The notes under the pieces: generated by a model
Database searches by the model: none
The model's input: the letters and a program-made list of their open reading frames with translations, nothing else
What the model was told of the DNA's origin: nothing
Translations under genes and position numbers: made by a program
Shown: piece after piece, positions 61,330 through 62,527 of the stretch
Numbering within the stretch: the stretch's first letter is position 1
Layout of the letters: each line of letters begins with the position of its first letter
Assembly (NCBI GenBank): GCA_029266835.1
Contig: JAQSWD010000002.1
Span: forward strand, 46,860-110,859
DNA length: 64,000 nt
From: Steroidobacteraceae bacterium
GTDB taxonomy: Bacteria; Pseudomonadota; Gammaproteobacteria; Steroidobacterales; Steroidobacteraceae
Direction of reading: 5' to 3'

Positions 61330-61703
61330 AGATAGGGATTCCCGTAACCAAAACTTTTCAGCACCGAGATCTCGCGGCGCTCCATGCGCACGCGGTCGCG
61401 CTCGCCACGCTCATGATCGTAGCCGGCGAGATGCAGTGCGCCGTGCACCACCATGTGCGCCCAGTGTGCGACCAGCGTCTTGCCATCGCGCTTCGCTTCC
61501 TGCCTGACTACTTGCGCGCAGATGACCAGGTCGCCCAGGGTGGGCAGGTCGGCCGGCGCCGGAAACGACAGCACGTTGGTGGGTTTGTCCTTGCCGCGCC
61601 ACTGCTTGTTGAGCTGCTGGCTTTCGCGCGGAGCGACCACGCGCACCGCGATTTCGCGTCCATCGCCGCGGCGGCCCAGCGCCGCCGACGCCCAGTGATT
61701 CAT
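61326..61703 (-). CDS. ybeY: endoribonuclease YbeY, 5' end lost by deletion
   Basis: Single-strand RNase for 16S rRNA 3' processing and ribosome quality control. The zinc site HGALHLAGYDHERGE and RGKDKPTNVLSFP are intact. The frame upstream of ATG 61703 still reads LKLDLARGTKAWAPARSR, which matches the normal YbeY N-terminus, but then runs into phoH sequence with no ATG. So the native start was removed. Translation from the internal ATG (overlapping the phoH stop, ATGA) gives 125 residues, about 25 fewer than expected. Confidence 0.88.
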   Translation of the reverse strand: MNHWASAALGRRGDGREIAVRVVAPRESQQLNKQWRGKDKPTNVLSFPAPADLPTLGDLVICAQVVRQEAKRDGKTLVAHWAHMVVHGALHLAGYDHERGERDRVRMERREISVLKSFGYGNPYL

Positions 61704-62527
61704 GCGCGAACGCGCCGGAGCCCAGGCTTTGGTGCCGCGGGCCAGGTCCAGCTTAAGCCGATGCGCGTGAGGAACATCTTCATCTGCTCGGGCGTGGTGT
61801 TCTGCGCCTCGTCGAGGATGACGTAGGAGTCGTTGAGCGTTCGTCCGCGCATGAAGGCCAGCGGCGCCACTTCGATGACGTTGCGTTCGATGAACCGGGC
61901 GACGCGATCGAAGCCCAGCATTTCGTACAGCGCGTCGTAGATGGGCCGAAGATAGGGGTCTATCTTCTGCGTGAGATCGCCGGGCAGGAAACCGAGGCGC
62001 TCGCCCGCTTCCACCGCCGGGCGCGTGAGGATGATGCGGCGGATCTTGTCGGCCTGCAGTGCCTCGACGGCGCTGGCCACCGCCAGGTAGGTCTTGCCGG
62101 TACCCGCAGGACCGATCCCGAAAGTCAGGTCCTTCGCGCGGATGTTCTGCAGGTAGTCGCGCTGGTTGCGGCCGCGCGCGCGGATGGTGCCGCGGGCGAC
62201 GCGCACCGAACCCGCGTCGGCAGGTTCGTCGACGCCCAATGCGCCGGGCATGTCGCGCGAATCGCGCAGCGCGAGGTGCACGCGTTCCAGCGAGATGTCC
62301 TCGTTTCGCGTGGCTTCGAACAGGTCGCGGATGACGTCCTCGGCGGGATGCGCGCGAGCGCCGGCGACGCGGAAACTGGCGCCGCGGCGCTTGATCGAAA
62401 CCGCCATGCGGTCTTCGACCAGGCGCAGATTCTCATCGAGCGGACCACAGAGATTCGCCAGGCGCGCATTGTCGGGCGGAGCCAGGTCGAATTCGCGGAC
62501 GGGGTCCACGGGAGCGGGAGTGCCCAT
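61700..62527 (-). CDS. phoH: PhoH-family ATPase, truncated at the C-terminus
   Basis: Of its 275 residues the N-terminal KH-like part and ATPase core are normal: Walker A GPAGTGKTYLA (about 138-148), GERLGFLPGDL, Walker B SYVILDEAQNTTPEQMKMFLTRIG. Directly after this the frame changes to unrelated codons (SWTWPAAPKPGLRRVRA) and stops. The usual VVTGD motif and about 85 further residues are missing. The junction is near 61752-61757 and continues into ybeY sequence. YbeZ normally works with YbeY in rRNA processing. Confidence 0.88.
   Translation of the reverse strand: MGTPAPVDPVREFDLAPPDNARLANLCGPLDENLRLVEDRMAVSIKRRGASFRVAGARAHPAEDVIRDLFEATRNEDISLERVHLALRDSRDMPGALGVDEPADAGSVRVARGTIRARGRNQRDYLQNIRAKDLTFGIGPAGTGKTYLAVASAVEALQADKIRRIILTRPAVEAGERLGFLPGDLTQKIDPYLRPIYDALYEMLGFDRVARFIERNVIEVAPLAFMRGRTLNDSYVILDEAQNTTPEQMKMFLTRIGLSWTWPAAPKPGLRRVRA

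Follow-up and report, generated by a model that had tools for sequence, protein, structure and literature searches.

Here, we have analysed a window of 64,000 nucleotides from the draft genome of a Steroidobacteraceae bacterium (assembly GCA_029266835.1, contig JAQSWD010000002.1) and showed that the end of phoH (ybeZ) and the start of ybeY are missing together at a single join. We conclude that this gap is most probably a false join made in a short-read draft assembly rather than a mutation of the organism (a probability of roughly 0.86). The window ends with the last base of the contig, 2.2 kb away from the join. The genes at this end run on the minus strand in the order miaB, phoH, ybeY, a corC-type CBS gene and a further gene, which we take to be lnt-like. 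The features that bear on the argument are as follows.

61326..61757, minus strand: ybeY remnant, from codon 7 onward; the ATG at 61703 opens a 125-residue ORF
61754..61757, minus strand: the join; the phoH side reaches 61755, ybeY codon 8 starts at 61754, and CTT at 61757-61755 fits both
61700..62527, minus strand: phoH (ybeZ) remnant; residues 1-257 family-like, then one junction codon and 17 foreign codons
62532..63848, minus strand: miaB, with 30 codons missing in frame at about 63519/63520
63986..64000, plus strand: final 15 bases of the contig, which repeat 62205-62219 within phoH in inverted orientation

The phoH frame (62527..61700, minus strand) encodes 275 residues, and the last 17 codons before its stop are not PhoH-like. 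Read in another frame, these final bases give LKLDLARGTKAW, which is identical to residues 7-18 of a 149-residue YbeY (P0121). The join falls between 61754 and 61755, with at least CTT (61757-61755) shared by both flanks. A sequence-only reading of this DNA had described a family-like phoH that ends in 17 unrelated codons, the N-terminal sequence of YbeY in another frame of the same bases, and an ATGA overlap with a short YbeY frame. All of this was borne out: the family-like part spans residues 1-257 before the foreign frame begins, and the ATGA is present at 61703-61700, where the YbeY frame from 61703 is 125 residues long.

In Pfam, the nucleotide-binding part of the PhoH/YbeZ ATPase domain (PF02562) is matched with an E-value of 3.1e-71 over profile positions 2-145 of 205, and the C-terminal part is incomplete, the last 60 of the 205 positions being absent from the window PhoH. 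The YbeY endoribonuclease domain (PF02130) is matched over profile positions 27-128 of 129 (E-value 1e-31), and the NCBIfam model TIGR00043 scores 122.8 bits (cut-off 45). By these matches the remnant belongs to the YbeY endoribonuclease family, with a predicted RNase activity and a predicted role in 16S rRNA maturation. Its N-terminus is incomplete in that the start and the first 6-7 residues are gone, or 24 residues for a protein begun at the ATG at 61703.

Evidence that the missing block exists in nature comes from otherwise identical database proteins that are whole; the names of close hits point to the family Steroidobacteraceae. Over residues 1-257, four PhoH proteins (P0001-P0004) agree with the window PhoH at 257 of 257 positions, and all are full length at 326-334 residues. 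On the other side of the join, P0121 ends in all 125 residues of the window YbeY. The longest contig is 44,573 bp for P0121 and for P0003 alike, which suggests that the two are probably encoded on one contig as an intact pair; P0121 has no stated source, so it is the agreement at 44,573 bp that links it to P0003. Its source mark ('-') is the one also given to proteins encoded in the window, yet the longest contig of P0121 is shorter than the contig of the window. P0001 and a further YbeY, P0125, likewise share a longest contig of 13,569 bp, but P0125 is only 94% identical to the window YbeY and thus comes from another strain or species. The last PhoH residues of P0001-P0005 differ in both length and sequence despite identity or near-identity over residues 1-257, and for P0001-P0004 this points to variation within the missing block.

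Computed from the protein lengths, the window lacks 225 bp relative to the 326-residue PhoH or 237 bp relative to the 330-residue PhoH, which corresponds to a loss of 68 or 72 PhoH residues, respectively. The loss of about 85 residues estimated earlier was therefore too large. The alignment with close relatives that had been proposed as a check gave a similar size: two genomes of the same genus, G001 and G002, match the window up to the join from either side, with 219 and 225 additional bp in between, respectively. Their PhoH proteins are intact (323 residues in G001, 325 in G002), and the G002 YbeY has 158 residues.

A wider comparison shows how consistently relatives depart from the window at this point. 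Among 39 relatives, phoH is present in 36, and in every one of these the protein match breaks at residue 258 or 259, with open frames of at least 318 residues compared with 279 in the window. At the DNA level, the match over phoH stops at query position 846, equivalent to 61755 in the window, in 28 of 35 relatives, and at 828-854 in the other seven. With a best E-value of 1.3e-142 among the relatives, chance is excluded as the source of this pattern. The earlier suggestion of one missing block that both truncates PhoH and removes the start of ybeY was right.

We extended the survey to 150 genomes of the family, including that of the window. Three gave no match and 13 gave weak matches only (best E-values from 3.7e-13 to 1.4e-31); the latter were taken as PhoH2-like genes or fragments and left out, which leaves 134 genomes with phoH. 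In 131 of them the match extends to query residue 318 or further. Of the others, G158 matches to residue 301 within an open frame and G041 has its phoH cut by contig ends, so that the window's genome is the only one of the 134 in which the phoH match stops inside a contig. In the PhoH scan of genome contigs, the relatives listed have at most 63% identity, and nearer ones were possibly left out.

It had also been proposed that a second complete copy be sought elsewhere in the genome, and none turned up. The 221 contigs (87% complete) hold a single ybeY match, and the missing end of PhoH was not found elsewhere among them. The only other PhoH match lies on contig C136; this gene has a longer frame of 547 residues, is presumably PhoH2-like, and was rejected as a second copy. 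As the genome is 87% complete, the absence of a second copy falls short of proof. The genome is likely to be metagenome-assembled.

Two further lesions lie near contig ends. In miaB, about 0.5 kb from the same contig end, an in-frame block is missing that gives exactly 30 more residues in all 119 other MiaB proteins listed; the closest of these is 93% identical to that of the window without gaps, and none is near-identical. In rpsA, which encodes ribosomal protein S1, an exact tandem duplication of 77 bp (330-483 of contig C8 of G000; L163:330-483) breaks the frame. It is located 0.4 kb from the contig end, near the start of C8, and S1 is presumably essential in such bacteria. The 5' part of rpsA is found on contig C60, which overlaps C8 by exactly 99 bases, and contigs C12 and C16 also overlap by exactly 99 bases. 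Fixed exact overlaps of this kind are what de Bruijn assemblers leave between contigs. The inverted copy at 63986-64000 is perhaps a chimeric contig tip, and no continuation of this contig end was found on another contig of the genome.

Taken together, we favour a false join because otherwise identical proteins are whole, neither a second ybeY nor the missing PhoH end was found in the 87% complete genome, and two more lesions occur beside contig ends. Of the two origins raised by the sequence-only reading, the assembly error thus fits better, and a natural deletion is disfavoured by the identical whole proteins and by the miaB and rpsA lesions near contig ends. Such joins would derive from a small number of chimeric or faulty reads, or from a mixture of strains, and would be followed by the assembler where coverage or the assembly graph is poor. 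Since a de Bruijn assembler needs sequence that spans the join, the join was probably present in a few molecules, real or chimeric. A repeat-driven collapse was considered and rejected: exact direct repeats of at least 14 bases are absent from the final 3 kb of the contig, and the join itself has no more than a few bases of homology, too little for a simple collapse of a repeat. The living organism would then carry phoH and ybeY as an ordinary intact pair with an ATGA overlap, as in G001 and G002.

The locus shares with a phoH-ybeY (ybeZY) operon the miaB-phoH-ybeY-corC order seen in G001 and G002, the ATGA overlap, PhoH residues 1-257 and the last 125 residues of YbeY, whereas the last 68-72 residues of PhoH and the first 6-7 of YbeY are absent from the assembly here. 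Out-of-frame joins in conserved genes, 99-base overlaps and whole copies elsewhere are also features of the assembly errors that occur at contig ends of short-read drafts. No paper on exactly such a pattern was found in the literature, as far as the partly available texts extend.

As the main rival, an actual, very recent deletion in one strain, likely by short-homology joining, could have removed the end of PhoH and the start of YbeY, and the 125-residue YbeY may then still be made from the ATG at 61703. That homology of at least 3 bp (CTT) exists at the join, as is often the case in real deletions, that this ATG overlaps the new phoH stop, and that the YbeY domain match is almost whole would all suit such an event, as would the dispensability of YbeY in E. 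coli reported in PMC4047096. However, the otherwise identical proteins are full length, and a real deletion would have to be accompanied by another recent loss, in miaB at a distance of 1.8 kb, and leaves rpsA unexplained; we therefore regard it as unlikely. In the fullest form of this rival, the C-terminus of PhoH, the N-terminus of YbeY and a linker of MiaB would truly have gone from the strain in quick succession, leaving a PhoH stump ATGA-coupled to a 125-residue YbeY, a scenario to which we give very little weight. A loss in this pair would be surprising: in E. coli, YbeZ from the same operon is an interaction partner of YbeY (PMC5101352), and V. cholerae cannot do without YbeY, whereas E. 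coli and S. meliloti can (PMC4047096).

It is hardly credible that this lineage normally has a short PhoH and a short YbeY and that its relatives have gained sequence. YbeY gene calls of 125-134 residues do occur elsewhere (14 of 120 listed), but PhoH has 323 and 325 residues in G001 and G002, YbeY has 158 in G002, the otherwise identical proteins are full length, and the shortest of the 120 PhoH proteins listed has 288 residues. One of the short YbeY proteins (P0205) and a full PhoH (P0066) have the same longest contig of 9,329 bp, which suggests that the shortness of P0205 is likely a choice of start site. YbeY calls of 125 residues are also found on other contigs (P0124, P0130 and P0190) and may reflect start-site choices or similar losses.

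If the deletion were true, the reach of the YbeZ-YbeY partnership would be directly testable, and a true triple loss would be a natural test of the minimal YbeZ-YbeY pair needed for 16S rRNA maturation. If instead the join is false, as we favour, a claim of gene loss in a conserved rRNA-maturation operon drawn from this draft genome would be wrong, and its contig ends are not to be trusted for gene integrity.

The association of lesions with contig ends was surveyed by comparing about 350 kb of the window's genome with the ORFs in 2.1 Mb of G002 sequence; 135 ORFs were kept. N-terminal shortfalls were taken as start-site differences, part of which were checked. All three lesions (phoH, miaB and rpsA) fall in the set of 32 ORFs that lie no more than 2.5 kb from a contig end; after inspection of the flagged splits by eye, none was recognised in the 103 ORFs further inside contigs. 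Fisher's test of lesions against contig-end proximity gave p = 0.012, a value that is only supportive, as the choice of comparison followed the discovery of the lesions and a single contig end accounts for two of the three. One apparent split gene proved to be two neighbours, presumably purE and purK, fused by a long frame in G002, and the remaining apparent splits, including the one at 19.9-23.3 kb in the window, were dismissed on visual inspection as ORFs that are over-extended or in the wrong frame. At 20182-21492, an ORF of 436 residues, which we take to resemble a CorC-type CBS protein, lies between genes that are presumably rpe-like and djlA-like, at a place where G002 has no matching DNA of that length.
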